Below, one piece after another: positions 1-32,000 of a stretch of 64,000 bases of DNA. The notes below the pieces were generated by a model. The model was given only the letters and a program-made list of their open reading frames with translations, had not been told where the DNA came from and ran no database searches. The DNA is from Saururus chinensis (Eukaryota > Streptophyta > Magnoliopsida > Piperales > Saururaceae), in NCBI GenBank assembly GCA_035235625.1, contig CP141143.1, positions 19,017,092 through 19,081,091 on the forward strand. The letters run 5' to 3'. The first letter of the stretch is position 1. The number at the start of each line of letters is the position of its first letter. Made by a program: the position numbers and the translations under genes.

Positions 1-710
1 GTAGCCTGAGCAGAGGCTAGGTGTTTGCACCCGGAAGGCGATTCCAGCGTCTTTTTCAGAGCCGGCAAAGGACAAGGAGACCGGCATTTGAGTTGACGGG
101 GACAGGGCAGTCAACCAGTGTGGAGGGGATACAAGGCAGATCTTTGAGGATTTTCAAGATGATGAAAAAATGCGCAGCTGTTTTAACCATGATCTATGCG
201 CCGATGTTCCAATTGCTGAAACTATTTCGCTCATGATTACAGGACTATGATCCTAGAAGAGTAAGATGTACAAAGGCAAATGTGCACCAAAATTGCACTC
301 CACAAGAAGAAAACCAAACACACAAGACCATTTGGCATGCTTGCACTGTGAATAAAATAAATAAAATAATATTTCTTTTAGTCAAACCCCTAATGTTGTC
401 AGGTGTGACAACCTTTTCTATCCAACTAGTTAGTGTGGAGAAAAGGGAGTAAGAATATCGAAGAACCGATGACTAAAAGGTCACACACAAACAGCAAAAG
501 GACCAAAAATTAAATAGATAGACACGCCCCACCAAGAACATATATTAACATTGGAATCCGAAAGTCAAACTACCAAAAGGGAGTGAGTGCAGCTCAGGCA
601 ACACTTGTATCACGAGGATAATTATAGCATTAATAAGGGCAAATATACAATTTTTTTACTATTGTACATATTAAATTCAATGTTACACGTAATTGTGTCT
701 GTCTAAGATT
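1..710. other. Downstream flank and 3' UTR of the H+-ATPase gene; no gene seen
   Basis: I see no supported coding sequence here. The stretch adjoining position 710 is expected to hold the 3' UTR of the minus-strand H+-ATPase gene. A 71-codon plus-strand ORF at 21-236 has no recognisable motif and I do not call it. The rest is AT-rich, unremarkable sequence. Confidence 0.5.
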
Positions 711-846
711 TTCACCTCATACAGTGTACGCTTGTTGAATGGTGTCTATGTCTAGACCCTTCAACCTCACCACGGATCCTCATCTCAGACTGTGTAAGCT
801 TGTTGAATGGTGTCTATGTCAAGACCCTTCAACCTCACCACGGACT
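711..846 (-). repeat. 68-bp tandem duplication of the H+-ATPase C-terminal coding end
   Basis: Two direct copies with a 68-bp offset lie at about 779-846 (inside the last coding exon) and 711-778 (just downstream in gene orientation). Each copy, read on the minus strand, encodes the final residues [18 protein letters not shown] followed by TGA. The 19 codons differ at four positions (CTT/CTA, GCT/GCG, ACA/ACT, GTC/GTA), all synonymous third positions. The downstream copy lies after the first stop codon and is shifted in frame relative to it. Confidence 0.9.
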
Positions 847-3800
847 CCACATGCCCCTTCAGGGTGGTGAGTTCTCTCAACCTGCCGATGAAACAATAAT
901 CCGAATCAGTTGTCCCATCCTTAACCGGGTTCAGTGATGGAATTAAAGCTTGGCATTTCAGAAGAGCACGTCTACTCAGTTAACATCAATTTGATAATAT
1001 CAACCAAAGTTTTCAATTCCACAATTTGATAATATCAATCATGGCTCACACGCCTTTGACATACTTGTTATTTTAGACTAATTGACAAAGATAATTAGAG
1101 GAGCATCAACGTTAAAAAGAAAATTAGTCAACTAGCAAAGTATTAACCTTGCAATCTCAGCACGTCTTCGGGCTTCTTCGGCCATTTGATTAAGATCTGT
1201 GAAGTTCGTTCTTTCACTGAACATCTTGGTATCTGGAGGTTGCAAGCCATGCAAAGTCCTCTGGGCGTGTGCCCACTTTAGTTCCCTGGCTTCTTTCCCG
1301 AAGTCTTTCTGTCTTGTAAATGCAATCTGTGGACGCAAGACAGAATCATGATAAAATAAAAAAGTAAAATAATCGAAGGTGGGGACACACAACATACACC
1401 TAAAAGAATACTAACCCTTTGCTCAATAACAAGATCCCAAGCTTTTCCACTAAGGGCATAGCGAATCATGAACTTGATTATATCTAGCGGGAAGTAGAAA
1501 ATAAAATTGTACAGCCAAACAATGCCAGCCCATCCCCAACCAATGCCTTCAATTGCAGCAAATCCCCAGTTTGCATATACTGCTATGAGAGTTGCTACCT
1601 ATATTACGAACAAAATGCATCATAGATCAGAACCAATTATATTAGTCAGAAAAATGTTCAGGGAACACATCATCAACTACCTGGATTTTGCATTCAGAGT
1701 AGGCTTACCAGCTGAGCAATCACAAAAGCTGATACAAGTAGCATGCCTGGACGCTCCACAAAAGACCAATTTCGTGATCGTGTCACAAAAATTAGAGCTT
1801 GGCTTATTGTGCTCACTTGAAGGTAAATTGCTGATGCCAGTTTCTTAAAGTCATCCCGAGCTGTTTTTTCAAGGCTTGAAACCCCAAAGGTCCGCTGTCC
1901 ATTTGCCAAAAACCAAAACAGCTCATACGGTCAATAGCTAACTAGCACCTAAAGATGAGAAGTTCATATATCCTATAGGCATGAAGAACAATATAAATAA
2001 TGAAGCAAAAAAATCAACAAATATGGAAAAAGCACGCATCAACTCAAAATAGCAAAGGCAAGTCTCAAAGCATCTGTGTGTTTCTGTCAGATGATTAAAC
2101 AAAAGGCACAAAATTCTATTATGATCTAAATATGTCATCCAATAGAGCCAACATACAGGAAAAAAATCTGTCTTATAGGCCGCCCAGAAGAAAATGACTG
2201 TCATCATAGCCAAGTAACTCCCAAGAATGATGCCTGTTGCGAAGATCTCTGACAACTTCCAGCTATCTGGTACTGGTGATGGTTTCACCCTGTCCTTTGA
2301 TATCGTCATTATAGTACCTAGCCATGTGTTAGAAATCAGTCAGAAGACACAAACAACACTAAGTAACAGATAAATGTTAAAGCTTTTCAAGTGAATAGAA
2401 CATACCATCATTTAGAATAGCAATGATAAGAACCATGAAAGGAGGAAAATCAAAATTCCAGATGAGGGCCAGTAGCATGAAACCAAGCTGCCAAATTTCA
2501 ACCAAAATTAAAAGAAAAACACAGTTGGTTTTCCACATAATAATCTTAACAGAATGATAAACAACTAATGGCCACTCAAATGCTATCAAGCTACTTATTA
2601 TAGTCGGATGATCAAAGGAAAGAAACATTGTCCATAGAGAACTCACCACAATACGAATTGTAATAGAGACAGCATAAATCTGCAACACATACCAACAACA
2701 TCCAAATTTATTTAAACTCCAGAAGGAGGAACAGTTTCTGATATACATAAAAAAGGGAGAAAAAGCTTTTATATTTTGTTTATCGGTAAAAAGCTTTTAT
2801 GCAATATCTATTATCAGGGAGAAAATGAAGAAAAGCTCACAGTATAGTTCTTCATCCTCTGAAAGATTGCACGACTTGTCAGCACAGCACTGATGATGAC
2901 ACTAAGACCAGGCTCTGTCAGCACAATGTCAGATGCACTGCGAGCTGCATCTGTAGCATCTGCAACTGCTATTCCTATATCAGCTTTCTTCAGTGCTGGA
3001 GCATCATTAACTCCATCACCAGTCATTCCACAAATGTGTTTCCTTGCTTGCAAACGTTTCACTATTTCGTATTTATGCTCTGACAAAAAATTACAATAAT
3101 AAAAACACAGAAAATTAATGGCCAAGAAATTGAAGGGCTTCTTTTGTTGAATGATATACCGGGAAAAACGCCAGCAAAGCCATCAGCCTTTTCAATCAGG
3201 TCATCAATAGGTAGAGCAGCTATCGACTCATCTTTGTTTTGGCCCAGTAAAGCAGAAGAAGGATACATGTTGGTTCCCATTCCCAAGCGGCGGCCAGTTT
3301 CCTTACCAATTGCAAGTTGATCACCTTATTCAACAAAACTCAATGTCAGGTATTTTTGTCCATAAAGCATAATAACAATACTCGTAAACGGGATTGTCCT
3401 AAATGCTTAAGATAGACTTAAGAATGCAGTAACGTCCATGAAGCTCACATTGGCCTTCATAGTATTAAAGTTCAGTGGCTAGTTGTATGGTGAGTAGAAC
3501 TTAGGAGTTAACAATATGGTTTTCTTAATTTGGATGCAAATTTTAAAAAATAACACTTTATATAGAAGAGCATCCTCGTGTAAGATTTCATGGTTTAACA
3601 AGTCAATCATTCAAACCCATTTGGCGGTACATACTCCCTGGTTTTCTTTGAATCAAGAGTCTTATTGACTGCTAACTGTTTGTTGATCTGTATATGTAAA
3701 TCAAGCAATAGCAATAAATAAAACACACCTGTTATCATTTTGACATTCACCCCAAGGTTGAGAGCTCTCCTGATTGTTTCAGCACTGTCATGTCGAGGAG

Positions 3801-7404: not shown

Positions 7405-7620
7405 ATACTCTTTCGGTCTTAAATTAATAGTTTTATTTGACAAAAACATTTATTCCATATTAATAATTTTATTTTGTTTTAAGTTAAGTGGTTGAGTACT
7501 TAAAAAAGAGTGTCATAAGTTTATTTTCATTTTTTTAGATGTAGGTTTCACCATTCAATAAGTTTTTTTATTTTTTTAAATATAACTATTAATCTGGGCC
7601 AAAGAGAATACTAGTTATTA
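7405..7620. mobile_element. Stowaway/mariner-like MITE, copy 1
   Basis: The left end begins near CTCTTTCGGTCTTAAATTAA and the right end, read in reverse, gives a matching CTCTTTGGCCCAGATTAA, both next to TA. That fits Tc1/mariner-type MITEs. The interior is AT-rich with no ORF. A clearly related copy in opposite orientation lies at 59718-59890: both share the block AAAAAAGAGTG, then AAGTTTATTTTC, then TTTAAATATAACTATTA in the same order. Confidence 0.6.
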
Positions 7621-15272: not shown

Positions 15273-16262
15273 TCAGAAATCCTCGTCGAGCTTAAACACA
15301 TGGTTCCCTCCATCCCCATTCAAACTGGACATGACCGACGCCTTCTGGTACTCGCCCACCCTCTTCTCAAAGAAGTTGGTCTTTCCCTGCAAAGAGATCA
15401 GCTCCATCCAATCGAATGGGTTCTGCACATTGTACAACTTCGCATAACCCAGGGCCGCCAGCAGCCGGTCGGCCACAAACTCAATGTACTGGCTCATCAG
15501 TTCCGCGTTCATCCCCACCAGCGCGCAGGGTAGAGCGTCGCAGACAAACTCCCTCTCGATGTCCACTGCGTCAGCGATGATCCCATAGACCCGTTCAGAG
15601 CTGAGTTTATGCTTTAGGAGGCTATAGAGGAGGCAGGCGAAATCGCAATGCAGACCCTCGTCGCGGGAGATAAGCTCGTTGGAAAAGGTGAGTCCAGGCA
15701 TGAGGCCGCGCTTCTTCAGCCAGAAGATGGAGCAGAAACTGCCGGAGAAGAAGATGCCCTCGACACAGGCGAAGGCGACGAGGCGCTCGGCAAAGGACTC
15801 AGAGCCGTCGATCCAGCGGAGGGCCCAGTCGGCCTTCTTGCCGACGCAGGGGACGGTATCGATGGCGTGGAAGAGGCGGTTCTTCTCGACAGGGTCCTTG
15901 ATATAGGACTCGAGCAAGAGGCTGTACATCTCAGAGTGGATGTTCTCGATGGCAATCTGGAAGCCGTAGAAGGCACGAGCCTCGGGGAGCTGGACCTCCT
16001 TCATGAATCGGCAGGCGAGGTTCTCAAGGACGATGCCGTCCGAGGCAGCGAAGAAAGCGAGCACGTGGGAGACGAAGTGGTGCTCGTCCCCGGAGAGGGA
16101 GTCCCAGTGGCGGCCGTCCTGGGAAAGATCCACCTCCTCGGCGGTCCAGAAGGAGGCCTCGGCCTTCTTGTACATCTCCCAAATCTGGGGTTACCGGATG
16201 GGGAACATGCAGAACCGGTCCGGATTGGCCGCGAGCAGCGGCTCCTCTGGGAACGCCGGCAT
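15273..16262 (-). CDS. Ribonucleotide reductase small subunit (R2), intronless, with a nonsense codon at position 24
   Basis: Small subunit of class Ia ribonucleotide reductase, which holds the di-iron/tyrosyl radical used to make dNTPs from NDPs. The family start [20 protein letters not shown] begins at 16262, but codon 24 (16193-16191) is TAA where relatives have Tyr (FPI[13 protein letters not shown]). Reading remains open from there, and an internal Met at 16175 starts a clean 300-residue ORF. Numbering from that Met, all metal ligands are present (Asp46, Glu77, His80, Glu139, Glu173, His176), as are the radical Tyr84 and the C-terminal tail [10 protein letters not shown] that contacts the large subunit. 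The gene is single-exon and GC-rich, as plant R2 genes are. It may be a functional gene started at the internal Met, a very young pseudogene, or carry a one-base sequence error. Confidence 0.9.
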
Positions 16263-19349: not shown

Positions 19350-20385
19350 TTCCATAACATACATAGTACTTTTTATATAATCTATAACATACTTAGACAG
19401 TACTCAAGAAAAAACTCATAATAAATCAATTACTAGAGAGTAACTAAAACTAATGAACTGATGCTACTAACCTCTCCCATAATTACAATGACAGCACCCT
19501 TCGGAAGGTTAAGGGTGATGTGTTTCAAGACTGAAACATCACCATATAGCCATACTCTCATCTGAAGGACAAGTCAGTTCTGAACAATGCTCAGAGCAAG
19601 CTAAGAAACCGCTCAATCGCCTGATAGATATAATAGCCTGGCACGTGTTTTAATTATACATACTTAGGGGTCGTTTGGGTACGGAATCAATTCGGTAGCG
19701 AATTGGAATTTTTTGGAATTAATTTCGCCGATTTAATATAAAATCGGAATTTCGTTTGGGTATGAAATTTTTAATATGGAATCGTGTTTGGATAGCGAAT
19801 TGTGTTTAAGGTTAGATTCTTTAGAATTTTAAGTAAATTAACAAATATACCCTTTGAATAGAATTGTTTTAATAGAATCATTTTTGGGTAAGAAATTTAT
19901 GTATTTATTTAAAATTGTTAAATTTATGAAAAAAAAATAACCTTCATTTAAGCATTGTACGCGGTTAGTGTGCACTACTAACAATATGCCCGACCTAATG
20001 TATTTGGCTTTGGGCCATATAGAACAGTTTACGATCACGCTAAAAAAGTTATTTTATTTTAAAAATTAATTATAAAAGTACAAAAGGCCTCATATTTTTC
20101 CTCAAACATTCTTTTATGGCTTGACGGGCCAATGGAAGTTCGTACCGGCCAATATTGAGTATCGTACATACTTGTATTGGTGAAGAGGCCTTATGCTCCT
20201 CAAAAATTCTTTTATGGCTTGATGGGCCCATAGAAGTTCGTACCAGCCGATACTGAATATCGTACGTACCTATATCGGTTGAGACCGATATGGTAAGATT
20301 CAAGGTGATACGCCCCACGTAAATTGATTGTAAATGCATGAAATGAAATCTATTTTTAAAATAAACTTGTGAGGTTCCAGTCATA

Positions 20386-21169
20386 CTACATGAGGGCTAT
20401 GGTAAATGGGTACATTTGGGCCCCTTTCTCCTTTAAGATGTTCATCAGCTTCTCAGTCCCCGCTACAAGAGCAGCAGTTATCCCTCGTTCACTTGCAGAG
20501 TGAACTGCGTCTCGCACTACCGCACACAAAGAATGCATTAGGTCATCCAATAGAAGGCAAATTAGCAGCAATTTCAGTTAAAAATTAGTAACAGCTAATA
20601 CTTTCTCCGATGCAATCCTAGTAGACTGTTAATAGTTTATGGCAACGTCTTTGATAAACTGCACACGATTTCTAGCATATTTTATTCAATCACTGCCTCT
20701 ATTCACGGTAATGCGAGGCTAATATTACATATAATAGCAGCCAAGGTTAGAAAGCATATTTATCAACTTGAATGAGCACCAGCATGCGAAATGCAAAACC
20801 TTTGATGGGGAATGATAACTGATGTTTGCATCTGATGGCCAACCCATTGTCATTCTCAGCATGATTGTTATCATTGTAGACTTTATCCTACCATTCTGAA
20901 TGGGCTCTGCCATCTAGTACAAGCCTAACCAAGCAGCAGTATCACGAGCTTTGGATGGTCAAAATAAATTCTTCCTGGTCTTACATCCCTGCAATTCCTA
21001 TTTTACGAAAGGTCCAATTACAGGAATTGGCTAAGGGTTGCTTGTACCATCCCACTCCTAATGACATACTAGCAACTAATGTTATTCGTAGAACCTTAAA
21101 TTTTGCTTCTGGCCATGCTTTGTGAAGATCCCAAGCTGACATCATTGGGCAGCACATGTCATACCTTCC
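20386..21169 (-). pseudogene. Proline iminopeptidase C-terminal fragment inside the PIF-like element
   Basis: Two exons match the end of plant proline iminopeptidase (alpha/beta-hydrolase, S33), which removes N-terminal proline from peptides. Exon 21169-21095 reads GRYDMCCPMMSAWDLHKAWP then EAKFK and ends at a GT. The exon from 20520 reads VVRDAVHSASERGITAALVA then GTEKLMNILKEKG. The family has GRYDVCCPMMSAWDLHKAWP and DAGHSANEPG. The catalytic Asp and His positions are present, but Gly, Asn and Pro around the His are changed to Val, Ser and Arg, and the acceptor before the last exon is no longer AG. The nucleophile-serine part (GGSWG) is not in the window. It is a captured, truncated copy rather than a working gene. 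Confidence 0.85.
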
Positions 21170-21568
21170 CTGAAAATATGTGTCATATGTCAAATGAATT
21201 ACCATGCACATAAATATTTCTGCTAGTGTAACATTTCAGTTTATTGAGTGAATTAGCTTACTACATTATTGTTCTTATACATGCCAGACATCATCATCAA
21301 GCTCATAGTAGAGGTAAGGAAACATTGAGGAGCTTTAAGGGGAACTACCGAACAACAAATAATGAGTCATGACATTTTAAGTAATATCACAGCTTCTTTG
21401 GCAGTGTCCAATCAGAGAAATCATCTTCGTTACAAAACAAAATTTTACCTTCGGACATCGTCTGGGTCTTCAAAAGATAGCATTGTAAAACTGCAGTAAC
21501 TGGCCTAGAGATGGACAGAGTAGGCAGCCGACTGAACTCCTCGCTCATAGAATGAGAGTAAAGTTTAC

Positions 21569-21698
21569 CGAATGTTATCTGTGGTAACTTTTGGTCCAGG
21601 TGCAAATTTCATATTTTCATCTACAGGTAAATGCCCTTCTACCTCATTGGCAGCTTTATTTTCTGTTGAGCTGTGAACAATAACAGTCCCAAAATCAC
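21569..21698 (-). pseudogene. Captured exon of a second gene (GTVIVH motif, possibly Ste20/Hippo-type kinase tail)
   Basis: An exon-like segment bounded by an AG acceptor (after TTGTGCAG) and a GTAAAC donor. It encodes DFGTVIVHSSTENKAANEVE then GHLPVDENMKFAPG and TTDNIR. The DFGTVIVH wording resembles the region after the kinase domain in plant Ste20/MST-type kinases; I recall this only loosely. A further downstream segment ends in FEDPDDVRR directly before GTAAAA (about 21440-21470). Both lie inside the PIF-like element in the same orientation as the iminopeptidase exons. Confidence 0.4.
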
Positions 21699-22287
21699 CT
21701 GCACAACACAGATGTAATACACCTGAGGAACATTGCTCCCAGTTTTCAATTTGCTTACCTTGTTCCTAACTTTGACAAATCCAAAAGGCAGTCAATCTAC
21801 ATTTAATAAATAACAAGCACAATATATACCAACTGTAATCTTGTTTTATAACTTCAAATGCAAAAAACTAAGCTAGTAAACTTCCATATTAAATGTTCCA
21901 GACCATCATGAACACATTTTTATGGGGAAAAATCATTAGTTACTTATGCCAAGTATTTTGTACGGCCATCACCAATTTAGTGTACTTCGGAACTGCTCCA
22001 AAATGTTAGAAAACATGGCATTGGTACAAAAACCATGATAAAACAATTATATAAAAGAAGAAAACTTGAACAAATACCACAACAGATCAGTCCAAGAGTC
22101 AACTAGATACAAACTAATGGGAACTCCAACAAGAACAAGTCATACACCTCCGATGTGCTGCCAATGTCATCCTGCAAAACAAGAATAAAGCAAATATAGA
22201 AACGAATTATAGGATGGGAGGGATAACCTGTAAAGCAGAAACCTTTATGTACAAACATAAACTGTGAAACCAAAACATATGTGATGA

Positions 22288-22800
22288 TTAGTGGTGACGA
22301 TTATAGGCGATGCTTTCTCGACTTCGGAAATGAGTGAGATCCAGGCGCCGAAGTCGCCCCGGTCCACCGCCACCTTCGCTCGAAGCTCGGAGAGGACTAG
22401 ATTGAATGACATTCATGGATTGTATTTCTGGGGGAAACAATAGCTCATTGTAAAAGAAAGCACCAGGTGAAGAGCGAAGCTGCAGACATTGCTCAGATTC
22501 TTCCATCGCTAGCCGGACTTCAGGCAACGAAAACTGCTCGCGCACCGGTGGTCCGCAGGCAGGCTTCAGTCTTTATGGCTACGATGGGGCTGTCGTCCGT
22601 CCGCCATTGGAGCAGAGACCGCCGACCGCCAGAAGGAGATTGGCAGAGGAGGTCGGAGGCCCACTTCAGACGGCAGCAGCTTCCTTCGACGGCAACACTG
22701 GCTCCGATGGAATGCAAGGGGAGGGAGACGAGACAGACGAGGGAAATAGTGAGAGAGAAGATCGGGTTGAAGAGGAGAGGGCGAATCATTTATGAGGGGT
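22288..22800 (-). other. GC-rich leader-like cargo block in the PIF-like element
   Basis: This is the only strongly GC-rich part of the element interior. Minus-strand ORFs (one beginning MEESEQCLQLRSSPGAFF, another with a serine/arginine-rich start) overlap, and none matches a family that I know. Its position upstream of the captured exons suggests a captured promoter/first exon. That is inference only. Confidence 0.35.
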
Positions 22801-23061
22801 AAGGGCTGGAAATACGCGATAACGCGTGTTTCCGTTTTAACGCGTTTTCTGGAATCGACCGAATCTCCTCGCGAGGAGATTCGGTGATTCAGGACGGAAA
22901 CGCGACTGAATCGTGTTTCCGACGGAATTTTTAATTCCGTTTACATTCTATATCCAAATAAGATTTTAGTAATTCCATGCTGAATTATGACGGAATCGTC
23001 GGAATTTTCTCTCGATTCCGTACCCAAACATCACCTTAATCACACAAGATCCACACAGTAA

Positions 23062-23371
23062 GGGGCAGTTTGGATACAGATTTGTCGAAAAAATTAATTG
23101 GGAAATCTGCTTCATGGCGAAGTTAAATAGTGAGTTGTCAGTGCATTTATTGTGCCTGGGAATTTAAAAAAGTGAATGAATTTGATTCATCTCTCTAAAA
23201 TCTCCTCTGGAGGAGATTTCACAAGAAAGCTGATTAAGGCCCTTTTCAACACAGCTCTGGACTTCGTGGCACTTCTTGACAGATTTGTGGGAGATTCATT
23301 ACTAATAAAATTTGTGGCATTCCCAAACACGATTTGGCTTCATCTCCAGAAATCTGTATTCAAACAGCCCC
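23062..23371. mobile_element. 310-bp Tourist-like (PIF/Harbinger) MITE
   Basis: Terminal inverted repeats GGGGCAGTTTGGATACAG (left) and GGGGCTGTTTGAATACAG (right, reversed) are flanked by TAA on both sides (23059-23061 and 23372-23374). There is no coding capacity. It lies 27 bp from the right end of the 3.4-kb PIF-like element, in the same ABCC13 intron, and its ends are clearly related to that element's ends. Confidence 0.85.
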
Positions 23372-26065: not shown

Positions 26066-26870
26066 ATGGATTTGTTGGACAAGCATGACAATCTTCAAGC
26101 AGTCAGTGTATACCTGAACAATAATAACTATTCTTATTGGAGTTATGTTGAGTAATTTTATAATGGGCAAAGTGTTGTGGAACTATATTGATGGTTCTAC
26201 TATGGAACCTGTTATGCAAGTGTATGTCAAAGTAGAGGAATTTTCACAACATTGTTATGAATGGTGTATGTATAATGCCAAAATATTCTTAGATAAATAA
26301 TTCAGTAGATCTCACTATTGGTCTACAATTAGCCAAGTTCAAGACCGCTAAGGCTGCAAGGGATTATTTGGCTTCATTATATGTGCAGTCTAATTATGCC
26401 AAGCTTTATCAGCTTGAATTGGATCTTTGCTCTACTCGACAAGGAGATAGATCTATTCAGGATTTCTATGTTAAAATGACCACTATCTGGGATCAGCTTG
26501 CCCTTATGGAATCGGTTGAAATTTTTGCTTTTGCTACCTTACTTCAGTATCGTGAGGTCCGTGGGTTGTTCAGCTTCTCATGGCTTTACTAGATGAATAT
26601 GAGGTCATTCGTGGTTCTATTTTACATCGATCTCTATTGCCTACTGTTGCTACTACAATCAATGAATTAATTGTAGAGGAAACCAGATTGAAGATTTTTA
26701 GTGGCTCGCCCTCCCCTAGTCCGACTATTTTGGTTGCTCCATCTAATGCACCTATTCAGGTATCCAGTAAGCCTAAACCTTGTACTGCTATAGATGAATG
26801 CAATTATTGTCATAAAAAAGGCCATTGGAAAAAGGATTGTCCACAATGCCCACAACAAATTGGCCTTTAG
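26066..26870 (+). pseudogene. Copia Gag remnant with CCHC zinc knuckle
   Basis: It opens MDLLDKHDNLQAVSVYLNNN and is broken by stops within 100 bp. It then continues with the UBN2/Gag-like stretch AARDYLASLYVQSNYAKLYQ and ends in the nucleic-acid-binding knuckle CNYCHKKGHWKKDC (CX2CX4HX4C) at about 26800-26845. Several frame changes are needed to read it through. Confidence 0.82.
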
Positions 26871-27557
26871 TCTACTAGTTTACAACCATATGGTCGTCCC
26901 TTTTTTGGACAGTTTGCAGCTTCTTAGCTAGCCCATATCTTTCAGCAAAATCATAGACAATGGTTCACTGGGGGTCGACCCACCGTTGCCAATACATTCT
27001 CTGATATACCAACTGAAGCCTCTTGCGCATCCTCACTATCGGTTGCCTCCACTCCTGAACTCCAGTCTCTCCTAGTAGATTTGACTTGTCTACTTGGTAA
27101 TTCTGCCACTCCCTTTGCTTTGTCTGTCTTAGACTCAGGTTTGTCTCTTCTATGTAACTATGTTCATTTTACCCGTTCTGATTGGATATTTGACTCGGCG
27201 CTACACATCATATGATGCTAGATGATTCCTTTTTTGTCGATGTGAAGATTCTTCTCACTTTAGTGTTGTCTGTGCAACCAATGGCACAACCATGCCATTG
27301 TTTGGCTTGGGCTCTATTCGATCTCCCTCACTTGCAGTTTCTGATGTCTTACATGTTCCACAATTAGCTGTGGTCTTTTATCATTTAGTCAACTTACAAA
27401 GCTTGGTTACACTGTTTTATTTTCCTCATCTAGTTATATTGTGCAGGACTTGAAGATAGGCAAGCAGATTGGGATAGGCCGTAGTGTCGGGGGTCTCTAC
27501 ACATTGGATTAACTGCATGCACTTACCTCTGTTGCTGCTCATTCTACTCTGGGTGAC

Positions 27558-28260
27558 TTGCATCTTCGTTCTGATTCTTCTTTGTTTTACTTGTGGCACT
27601 TGCGGTTGGGACATGTTTCTAAGTCTAGGCTACAATATTTAATTTCTTTTGGTGCTTTAGGAACTTTGCCAATTAGTGATACTTCCTTTTGTAGTAGTTG
27701 TAAACTTTCTAAATTATCCACACTTCCATTCACATTAAGTGATTCACTTTCTGCTAATCCATTTGATCTGGTTCATTATAATGTGTGGGGACCTGCCCCA
27801 GTTTCTACGAAGGGTGGTTCCAAATATTATGTTATGTTTGTACTCGCTATTCTTGGGTTTATTTTATGCGTCATAGATTTGATTTTCTTTTGATTTATCG
27901 TGACTTTATTGCTATGGTGCATACTCAGTTCAATGCAGTTGTTAAGTGCTTCTGCTCTAACTCGGGTGGTGAGTATTTATCTTCTGAGTTTAAGGCTCTT
28001 CTAACAAATAAAGGGACAACACATCAATTATCTTGCCCTCACGCACCACAATAGAATGGTGTCGCTGAAAGGAAGCATCACCACATTTTGGAGACTGCAC
28101 GCTCACTGTTACTCTCTACTTTTGTTCCTTCTATTTTTTGGGATGAAGCTGTTCTTACTATTGCTTACTTGATCAACTGCATTCCTTCATCCTTGATAGT
28201 TGGTAAGTCCCCTTTCAAATGCTTATACAATACCAAACCCGATTATCAGTCTATGTGTGT
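27558..28260 (+). pseudogene. Copia integrase remnant
   Basis: It begins with the HLRLGHVSKSRL ... FCSSCKLSK zinc-binding segment and continues into the integrase core, with CSNSGGEYLSSEF (normally SDNGGEY) and QNGVAERKHHHILETARSLL, then FWDEAVLTIAYLINCIPS. The catalytic Asp before NGGEY reads Asn, and a stop precedes NGVAERKH. The retained Glu of the core is still visible. Confidence 0.85.
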
Positions 28261-28853
28261 GGTTGTGCTTGTTATGTTTTACTTCTTGCTATTAAATGTT
28301 CAAAACTACCTACACAATCTAGGTTATACGTATTTTTAGGATATGGTGTTGGTCAAAAAGGGTATTGATGTTATGATCCGTTGTGCAACAAGTTGTATAT
28401 TTCTCGGCATGTTGTGTTTGTTGAACGTCTATTTTATTATGCGGTCCCTCATTGGGATTCTCTTGTTGATCGCTCGGATTTGCTTTACATTGATCTTTTT
28501 CCTCCATGTATTTCTGATGATTGCAATAAGTTTGTTGATGTGTCTGCTCTTGTTCCTTCTCGTCCAACTATTACACAAGTTTACTAATGTAGAATGCAAA
28601 GCTCCATGGCCCCATTGGTGTTGCCTCCTCCAGTTGCCCCCGATGCAGATCAAAATAGTGCCCTTGTACCTGTTCAAGAGCCTAGATGCAGTCTATGTTT
28701 GGCTAGGCTTCCTCTGGCTCTGCCTGCTCCCCTTGCTACCTCTCTGCCTTTGGATTCTATTGGTCCCCTTGTGTGTTGTGATGCTCGATATGCATGTTCC
28801 TCTTCTTTCTATACTTTTCATTTCCTTAATATTTTGTCTATCATTCACTCTCT

Positions 28854-29006
28854 TCATGAGCCTCAGTCCTACAAAGAGGCTTCTGGTGATCGCAGTTGGC
28901 AGAGGACTATGCAGAATGAGTTATCTACTTTGCACAAGACTGGAACATGGGAGTTAGTTTCTCTTCCACCTAGTAAGCATGTCATTGGGTTGAATCAAAG
29001 CTTTTG
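28854..29006 (+). pseudogene. Copia reverse transcriptase, N-terminal stub
   Basis: It encodes EPQSYKEASGDRSWQRTMQN then ELSTLHKTGTWELVSLPPSK, the conserved lead-in to copia reverse transcriptase, and ends at HVIGLNQSF. The polymerase motifs themselves are missing. The serine-, leucine- and phenylalanine-rich ORFs between 28343 and 28957 in other frames are by-products of this element. Confidence 0.8.
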
Positions 29007-32000
29007 AGATTTCAGCTCTTGCTGGTGCCTAAACCGTAAGTATGTTTTGCAAGTCTAATTTTGTTAGGTGTTTTGTATCTCATTGTGCAACATTGAAGCA
29101 GCAAAGAAACTGGGGAGTTAACATTAATTTTTTTAGTTCTATTTTGAGTTCAAGTATGGGACATTGTTTGAGAAGAAATAGATCTGGTTTCATCTGATTT
29201 TGGTGTTGAAAGGTGGGTGGATTTTGCTTGGTTTAGCCATTTCTGTTTTTGTTGAACGAAGCTTGAAAAGTTTTTTTGGGTAAAAGTTTAAAAGCTGGCC
29301 ATGGTTGCCTAATTGGTAAAGTTGCTTTTTGGATATCGGTTAGGGAATAAATTCTGCATTTGCGTGAATGGGGTTTTTTGCTCTTCATCTTGATAATATA
29401 TGTCTAATTTTTACTCCATTATAGAGCATTGTTGTACTATTCACATGAAAAGTTTTAAATTTAATGGTTTTTATAGTCCTTAGTATTCTTTTATCTTGTT
29501 CCAAATTTTTGGTAATTAGGTGTTTTACATATGAACTTCTCAACGTGTTAAATGGGGATCATGTTATTTTCTAGCGGCTGGAAGGTTTCACTCTGGTGGA
29601 CATGCTAGGAACAATTGATGCACTGGTTTTTCACTGTTTTCTTCTCGCTTTTGCTTAAAAAACTTGCTAGCGCTGGCTCTGCACTCTTCATTTTACAGTC
29701 CTAAGTCCACACCAACTCCAGAAGTAGGATTTTTTTGAAAAAAATGCAGCGTTCCCATTTGTGAATCTCACCGGTTAGCCGATTTGATAATATATGTTCC
29801 CATTTGTGCAATATAATTACCTTAACCCCTTGATTTAGGCATAATGAGAACACGAGGTGTTACAACCAACATGAAAAATCCATTCCAATTTAGCCATTTT
29901 GTGCATACATATGATTCAATTGATATCCAATTACATGCAATCAATATGGAATCAGCTTCTCCATAAAGCAATTATAACCCTTTTGCCAAGAATTATGCAT
30001 ATGTCATTTCTAGGAACAATTGATAGTGTTATTAAACGTACATATATCATATATGTGAATCGTGCTAATGCAGTTTCTTTTCAATAATCTAAAATTCAAG
30101 TATACTTCTTTTTCCTCTTGATTTGTAGTATTTTGCTTGTTTTGTAACTTAATATGGATTAAAAAAATATGATTTCTTTGTTGCGTTTATGTCGTAGGGA
30201 TCCAAAACTCCGTTGATTTTGAGAGTGCTTTTCTAGTATAGATGCATTATTTTCCTAATTTTAGTGATTAAGCAAAGTTGACTTGGATTGAGGATCTCCT
30301 TAATCACCCACCTCATCAAGCTTAGAAAGTCTTGTGTGTTGAACTTATAGTTTGTATTTAAGTTTGTGTGTTGAAGTTTTGTTACTTGAGCTTTTATTTG
30401 CTTATAGAAGGTTTATAGACCATATTAGTTTCTATGAGTATGTATGATGAGGGTAAGTTTAGCATAACCAACTTCTTCCCTCTGTCATACTACACTATAA
30501 ATGGATGATTGGGAGTTTTAATATAATGGACTGTTGCAAGTTTTTCATTCCCTTTTGCTGTTCCAGCCAGAGTTTGAAAGGTAGTCCATGTTCCTTCATT
30601 TTCCTCCATTTGTGAATAGTAAAAGTAAGGGAATTTTCTACCGATAAGTGTGCAATTTAGACAAACAGGGGTGAAGACATCAGGTAAGATGCATTTTACA
30701 ACTTATATGTTGGTCAAAATCTTATAAAGAAGTTACTTTTCATGTCTTCGTGTTGCCCCTTTTACTCTGTCATAATAAATTATGACCTTGTTGGTGAATT
30801 ATGCAATAACGTGTTTGCAACTTGTGTTTGCAAGTTTACCTCAGAGACGCCTTCTATAAATTATGACAATATATTGTAATTTATTGTTCCTTCTAAGGGT
30901 CCATTTGTTTTGTCTAAATCTGAATCTGAAAAGCCAACTGAAAATTCTAAAAAGCCTACCATCTGAATTTCACACTAAATTTGAATCTAAATCAGATCTG
31001 AATCTAAATCTAAATTTGAATCTTAATACATTGAATTTTTTAAAATTTTAAATAAACTATTTTTTAATTTGTACTAAAAAATTTTATTGCAATGAAGATC
31101 ATATGTATAGAAAAAGTTTATATTAACTATTTTATTGAGTCACATCCACATTACTGTAGTGTTCGTGCTTGACACTCACCATAAATAAAAAGTTACTTTC
31201 ATTATTTATTTCATTGAATATTTAGCTACTATTTAAGCAATTTACACTATCGAAATCAAGCTTTTCTAGGGGACTATGTGGCAAAAGGTCCAAAAGGAAA
31301 GCTACTAAACTCTATTAAGAAAAACCACAAAAATGCAAAACTAGATTTAATTACAAAGCTACCAACCACAATAAGTTTTATACAATTTTGATACATTAAA
31401 AAACACATACAAACCACCTACAAATAAACTTCATAGGGTATCCACATCAAATCAAAACATTATCTAGGGCTGTCAGTCAACAACTCATGCATATACATTC
31501 CACAAGTGAGTAATGAAGTATTGTCTCTTATGTGGAGCTTCTTTTTACGTAATTGAAGTTATTTCCAAACAAGGCCAATAAATACAATCTCCATTATCTT
31601 CCTATCTTTTCCCATGTCTTATAAAAAAATAAAAAATAAAAACATGCAAACAAAATGATTTCCAAAAAATATGACGAAGGCCCAATATTTGAATATTTGC
31701 AATGTAGATGGTACTGATATTAGGCAATTAAATGCACAACACACTATTCTGTTCACCACATATTGAAGGCTTCTAAAGCACACCCTGACATATTTGAGTA
31801 TTTCACATGGGATAAACATAATTTATAAGAACAATTTTCAGATAATTCGTGTCTGCATACCTTGCAAATTAGAAACCAAAAGTCCTGAGTGAGAAATTTT
31901 CCTCTTTTTGTAGCAAATTCCTGGGTTTTATGTAACTGACAAAAGGTTGATAGCCAACAAGTGAAGTTCTCTGCCGCCATCCAGTTCATCTATTCCAAAA

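Follow-up and report, generated by a model that had tools for sequence, protein, structure and literature searches.

A non-autonomous PIF/Harbinger element of Saururus chinensis carries pieces of three host genes whose order of capture is suggested by its relatives

The DNA examined here is a window of 64,000 nucleotides (nt) from Saururus chinensis (assembly GCA_035235625.1, contig CP141143.1, positions 19,017,092-19,081,091 of the forward strand; the genome comprises 516 Mb in 11 contigs), and its positions 19667-23035 (3369 bp; genome address C4:19036758-19040126) are occupied by a non-autonomous PIF/Harbinger element with captured pieces of host genes, that is, a Pack-PIF. The inverted ends are 23 nt long and 87% complementary (window 19666-19688 and 23014-23036), the left terminus reading GGGGTCGTTTGGGTACGGAATC and the right terminus being an imperfect inverted copy of GGGGTCGTTTGGGTACGGAATC, and TTA target duplications bracket the element at 19664-19666 and 23036-23038. 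No Pfam family was matched by seven open reading frames (ORFs) tested from the element or by one ORF of a neighbouring miniature inverted-repeat transposable element (MITE), and the window holds none of the 150 places listed in a genome search for DDE_Tnp_4, in which 150 of 408 candidates were scored. A preliminary description of this DNA had proposed a PIF/Harbinger-like element with inverted ends, TTA duplications and no transposase, and all of these features were found. Pack-MULEs have Mutator-type ends and target duplications of about 9 bp, a description that the element does not fit, its duplications being 3-bp TTA/TAA. The parts of the element are, in window coordinates:

19667-23035, no strand assigned: the entire non-autonomous Pack-PIF, with inverted ends, TTA duplications and nine genomic copies
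19667-20316, plus strand: native PIF-family left arm with an internal 83-bp direct repeat, identified by arm matches across the genome
20325-21311, minus strand: 3' terminal segment captured from a proline iminopeptidase gene, with its last two exons and introns, 92.7% identical to the donor at C9:8440793-8441794 (L019)
21320-21551, minus strand: captured downstream part of PRP39, 94.4% identical to C6:36837736-36837966 (L024)
21552-22115, minus strand: segment with the GTVIVH exon, captured from a probable STE20/SIK1-like kinase gene and replacing 71 bp of PRP39, 96.5% identical to C9:30532640-30533199 (L021)
22116-22575, minus strand: captured 5' part of PRP39 (upstream sequence, the putative first coding exon and the beginning of the exon after it), 89% identical to C6:36837171-36837664 (L022)
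22580-23035, plus strand: native PIF-family right arm, with the PRP39 join near 22575 common to C2:33.0M and C4:37.06M

The cargo derives from three donor host genes, all located elsewhere (iminopeptidase at C9:8.44M, kinase at C9:30.53M and PRP39 at C6:36.84M), and the sense of all three corresponds to the minus strand of the window. Two iminopeptidase exons and the GTVIVH exon, in one orientation, had been recognized before and read as coming from two or more unrelated host genes, with sources expected elsewhere; these claims agree with our results, and PRP39 had been overlooked. The GC-rich, leader-like block of the preliminary description is present, but it is not one leader, since it is made up of PRP39 5' sequence (22116 to about 22575) and the family's own right arm (about 22580-23035). 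Four exons of the iminopeptidase donor, joined by eye, matched TIGR01249 (E 5.5e-49), under the whole-protein cut-off since the query has 125 aa only, as well as the PDB sequences 1qtr, 5yhp and 1azw, and the PRP39 donor matched HAT_PRP39_N (E 2.3e-25). For the kinase segment, C9:30.53M was the sole match outside the nine copies in a search of the interior with all candidates scored. One ORF of this donor contains EPRLRPTAAEMLK and a later ORF contains HKFIEKC, which resembles the end of a kinase domain, and we take the donor to be a SIK1-like STE20 kinase, an identity that is probable only. Pfam returned nothing for the unspliced stretch with the first iminopeptidase exon, for the kinase exon, for two ORFs of the iminopeptidase donor or for one ORF of the kinase donor.

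The comparison of loci with one another took in 37 of 75 loci and matches longer than 60 bases only, and the donor loci have no arm match of that length within flanks of about 1.5 kb. A BLAST comparison of the three donor loci with the whole window placed all cargo from iminopeptidase, kinase and PRP39 within 20325-22599, and a full local iminopeptidase gene, which the preliminary description had named as evidence against capture, is therefore not what lies here. One extra weak match of the L019 flank was obtained at 7424-7561 (71%, non-exonic). The iminopeptidase donor locus itself has a second last-exon-like piece (L019 3407-3481), 79% identical and about 1 kb downstream.

A query with the interior (20300-22800) gave 31 genomic matches from 28 candidates, all scored, and the kinase and PRP39 parts occur together at nine places, the shared interior being 95-100% identical (in C7:32.03M, part of it only). 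Five short copies measure 3365-3373 bp (the C4 copy in the window, C5:46.02M, C1:39.90M, C8:15.19M and C11:19.41M), and the long copies measure about 5.85-5.89 kb (C8:19.06M, C2:19.04M and C4:13.63M) or 4.85 kb (C7:32.03M). TTA/TAA is found on both sides in eight of the nine, while at C11:19.41M the left TTA is present and the right end is damaged. Both the left and the right flanks differ among the nine sites. The element is thus mobile together with its cargo, as seen from nine copies with different flanks, eight of them with both target duplications. Genomic copies with the same ends and cargo were what the preliminary description had looked to for support, and the case that it had set against them, two independent elements, is not what the genome holds, as both ends belong to one element. 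Over positions 1042-3369, pairwise distances among the copies range from 0.6 to 5.6%, and in a midpoint-rooted tree the four long copies cluster together (support 100/98), as does the window copy with C5:46.02M and C1:39.90M (100/99). The right arm (window 22600-23035) diverges by 7.9% among the nine copies versus 2.4% for non-exonic cargo; this may reflect exchange with other members of the family or a rapid decay of methylated CpG.

The long copies retain element positions 674-3369 (1042-3369 in C7:32.03M), and behind their left arm lie 2.0-2.7 kb of different sequence. This added sequence matches C1:14.48M over 583 bp at 98%, gives three matches to C3:47.06M at 92-97%, and includes a 940-bp module (L014 561-1500) that is found at ten further places in the genome (seven full and three partial, 94-97% identical), four of which lie at loci of family right arms. 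Capture of the C3:47.06M piece from spliced RNA was considered and rejected, as its 1.4-kb gap has an overlap of 4 bases at the join, lacks GT/AG and looks like a deletion.

The arms belong to a larger family. The left arm gave 42 listed matches, 82-93% identical besides the window itself, with 40 of 250 candidates scored, and the right arm gave matches at 40 scored places of 445 candidates. Pairing of these scored arm matches gave 26 pairs of ends with spacings of 3.1-9.7 kb, six of the pairs being copies of the present lineage; the pairing used 40 of the 42 left-arm rows (two short side pieces dropped) and 40 of the 68 right-arm rows (28 short opposite-strand side matches dropped). Two of the family's elements, 9.7 kb long and located at C4:11.38M and C1:6.07M (L043 and L044), encode DDE_Tnp_4 (E 5.8e-23 and 3.3e-23), and their arms are about 86% identical to those of the window element. 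A 252-aa ORF in L044 matched no Pfam family and may be a candidate for the second protein (ORF1, Myb/SANT-like) of autonomous relatives, which it resembles by eye. DDE_Tnp_4 was found within 10 kb of 14 of the 40 left ends, a count based on 51 of the 150 listed places, namely the first 48 plus another three chosen by eye for nearness; twelve of the 14 distances are 1.1-1.9 kb, one is 5.0 kb and one (C1:39.90M) falls past the end of its element.

Two relatives with other cargo states suggest how the pieces were acquired. At C4:37.06M, the join between right arm and PRP39 is the same as in the window element, and PRP39 continues past the point where iminopeptidase starts in the window element, up to the end of the stretch examined. 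C2:33.0M has both PRP39 and iminopeptidase, with the original 71 bp of PRP39 at the place where the kinase piece sits in the nine copies. An 8-bp deletion is common to C2:33.0M and C4:37.06M and absent from the C6 donor. Because C4:37.06M has PRP39 where iminopeptidase starts and C2:33.0M keeps the 71 bp, the sequences suggest that PRP39 was captured before iminopeptidase and iminopeptidase before the kinase, with few relatives behind this order; capture in sequence had already been proposed, and these relatives speak for it. In the kinase step, 564 bp were gained and 71 bp of PRP39 were lost, the joins have 0 bp of overlap at either side and no arm remnant, and both joins are identical in all nine copies. 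Since the kinase piece replaced 71 bp, with blunt joins and no arm remnant, gap-filling repair appears to fit this step better than fusion of neighbouring elements.

We consider it very probable that the element is a Pack-PIF that was moved in trans, grew its cargo stepwise and spread to nine sites, with a sublineage of four copies enlarged. The transposase of full-length relatives in the same genome would have moved the non-autonomous element. A PRP39 5' fragment would have been placed against the right arm first, and an iminopeptidase 3' fragment would then have entered on the left-arm side of PRP39. The PRP39 cargo may next have suffered an internal break, in whose repair 564 bp of the kinase gene would have been copied from another site into the 71-bp gap, the copying being terminated by end joining. 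The finished element would then have spread to nine sites and, last, the sublineage of four copies would have gained further cargo behind the left arm. On balance, we lean towards a broader view in which one PIF/Harbinger lineage is a growing recorder, where repeated internal repair overwrites cargo and preserves the order of PRP39, iminopeptidase, kinase and then the C1/C3-matching pieces and the 940-bp module.

Some observations weigh against this account. C4:37.06M is deleted around the kinase site, and uninformative on the kinase step, and its left end is unseen. By single-site patterns, the PRP39 of the window element is nearer to C6 than to C4 (26 versus 9 sites), so that C4:37.06M may be a degraded sister line. 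The state before the kinase would be represented by a single relative, C2:33.0M, and movement in trans would be read from shared ends only. The accessible part of a report on animal Pack-TIRs gives microhomology at one breakpoint at least in 67.6% of them (PMC8277862), and the kinase joins have none. The kinase exon also retains its AG and GT in all nine copies and differs among them by 1.23%, below the 2.43% of non-exonic cargo.

The last two features favor a functional chimeric gene kept by selection, in which the PRP39 start, the kinase exon and the last iminopeptidase exons are spliced together, and the same sense of all three core donors, together with a gene 5' end and a gene 3' end at opposite sides, points the same way, as does the PRP39 exon-2 remnant, whose divergence (1.51%) is also below that of non-exonic cargo. 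However, three of three in one sense is a 1 in 4 chance, and the C1-derived exons of the long form appear oriented opposite to the core cargo. The putative PRP39 exon-1 splice donor is AT in all nine copies (GT in C6 and C2:33.0M), and at the last iminopeptidase acceptor, where the donor gene reads CAG, the AG is gone in seven of eight copies, C8:19.06M keeping it and C7:32.03M being without the last iminopeptidase exon. The PRP39 frame runs into a stop three codons past the kinase join, and the pooled exons, with limits assigned in this analysis, diverge by 2.97% versus 2.43% for the rest of the cargo, the last iminopeptidase exon reaching 6.61%. A chimeric protein from the element is unlikely because the putative PRP39 splice donor is lost in every copy and the last iminopeptidase acceptor in most; the exon divergences and the lost splice sites give no clear sign of selection for such a protein, even if the kinase exon taken singly has changed less, and we hold a selected chimeric gene to be very improbable. 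The preliminary description had the element making a chimeric transcript from its own leader, which seems not to hold, given that the block is largely captured PRP39 and that these splice sites are gone.

It is less improbable, though still unlikely, that the cargo grew solely by fusion of neighbouring PIF insertions, where a close pair of elements is mobilized as a unit along with the intervening DNA. Such fusion is the model offered for Pack-TYPE elements in the accessible part of PMC8903248, and the close pair it needs does exist: at C4:37058036-37063616 (L031, L023 and L035), a complete-looking member is arranged tail to tail with one that bears PRP39 and is without a right end, and the PRP39 step could have begun so. 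The kinase segment, however, lies inside the PRP39 cargo, where it took the place of 71 bp and left no arm remnant at the joins, a replacement not predicted by that model, and the flanks of the kinase donor have no arm match within the limits given above. Fusion is disfavoured for the kinase step. Segmental duplication of one locus could account for the 95-100% identity of the interiors, but not for flanks that differ at nine sites or for TTA/TAA on both sides of eight copies, and this reading is hardly credible. The least probable of all is that two short MITEs flank a native local gene by chance; a Tourist-like MITE does adjoin the element at 23062-23371, but this reading is refuted by the copies, five of which keep arms and interior as one 3365-3373 bp unit at different sites while four keep most of it, and the donor exons are found nowhere else in the window. 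Stepwise capture by a mobile Pack-PIF, with gap-filling repair as the probable source of the kinase piece and probably no protein product, is the account that we retain.

The window contains other features around the Pack-PIF. The Tourist-like MITE is 310 bp long, with TAA on both sides, and lies 26 bases from the element. A ribonucleotide reductase small subunit gene occupies 15273-16190 on the minus strand as a single open frame (PF00268, E 2.1e-110), and at 26293-29007 on the plus strand there are ORFs that we take to resemble a broken Copia-type retrotransposon.

Gene capture by PIF/Harbinger elements has been published for the Pack-PIFs of maize and rice (PMC8903248), Pifvine-3 of grapevine (PMC2528002) and Turmoil-1 of nematodes (PMC2572040), and, going by the accessible parts of these reports, such carriers are better described than had been stated for this locus. 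Zm-Pack-PIF cluster 18 of the maize and rice set resembles the window element in its PIF-type ends, TTA/TAA, lack of a transposase, host pieces and many copies, and a second gene piece was also added in a subgroup of those Pack-PIFs. Unlike cluster 18, for which the accessible text gives a 535 bp average (group B), the present element ranges from 3.4 kb in the short form to 5.9 kb in the long form, and, unlike the Pack-PIFs described there, it has three core donors and a kinase piece that replaced earlier cargo. The Pifvine-3 elements, as far as that report is accessible, are PIFs in which as much as 3.5 kb matches exons and introns of the host, in some cases shared among copies, but canonical transposase regions are present in them as well, and an order of capture is not given there. 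The Harbinger element Turmoil-1 of C. elegans likewise holds pieces of rsp-2 and cpg-3, two genes unrelated to each other, but these are set in the element's 760-bp inverted repeats, and the element, which has a transposase of its own, is present as one full copy and eight fragments (PMC2572040, accessible part). The animal Pack-TIR model of gap filling (PMC8277862, accessible part) resembles what we propose in having an internal break, filler copied from elsewhere and amplification by transposition, but differs in its hosts and in the microhomology that the kinase joins lack.

In rice Pack-MULEs, host gene fragments are similarly taken up by an element with inverted ends, but here the ends, the 3-bp TTA/TAA site and the transposase family are those of PIF/Harbinger. 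In the literature searched, we found no PIF with three donors and a replacement-type capture, although one may nonetheless be in print. The window element is a further Pack-PIF with an unusually readable history. How Pack-type elements take up genes is still debated, with neighbour fusion on one side and gap filling or template switching on the other. The family in S. chinensis preserves the states before and after one capture as well as the donor, so that the event can be followed at the level of single bases, and, in a superfamily where neighbour fusion had been the proposed route, the kinase step appears to favor capture of the repair type.
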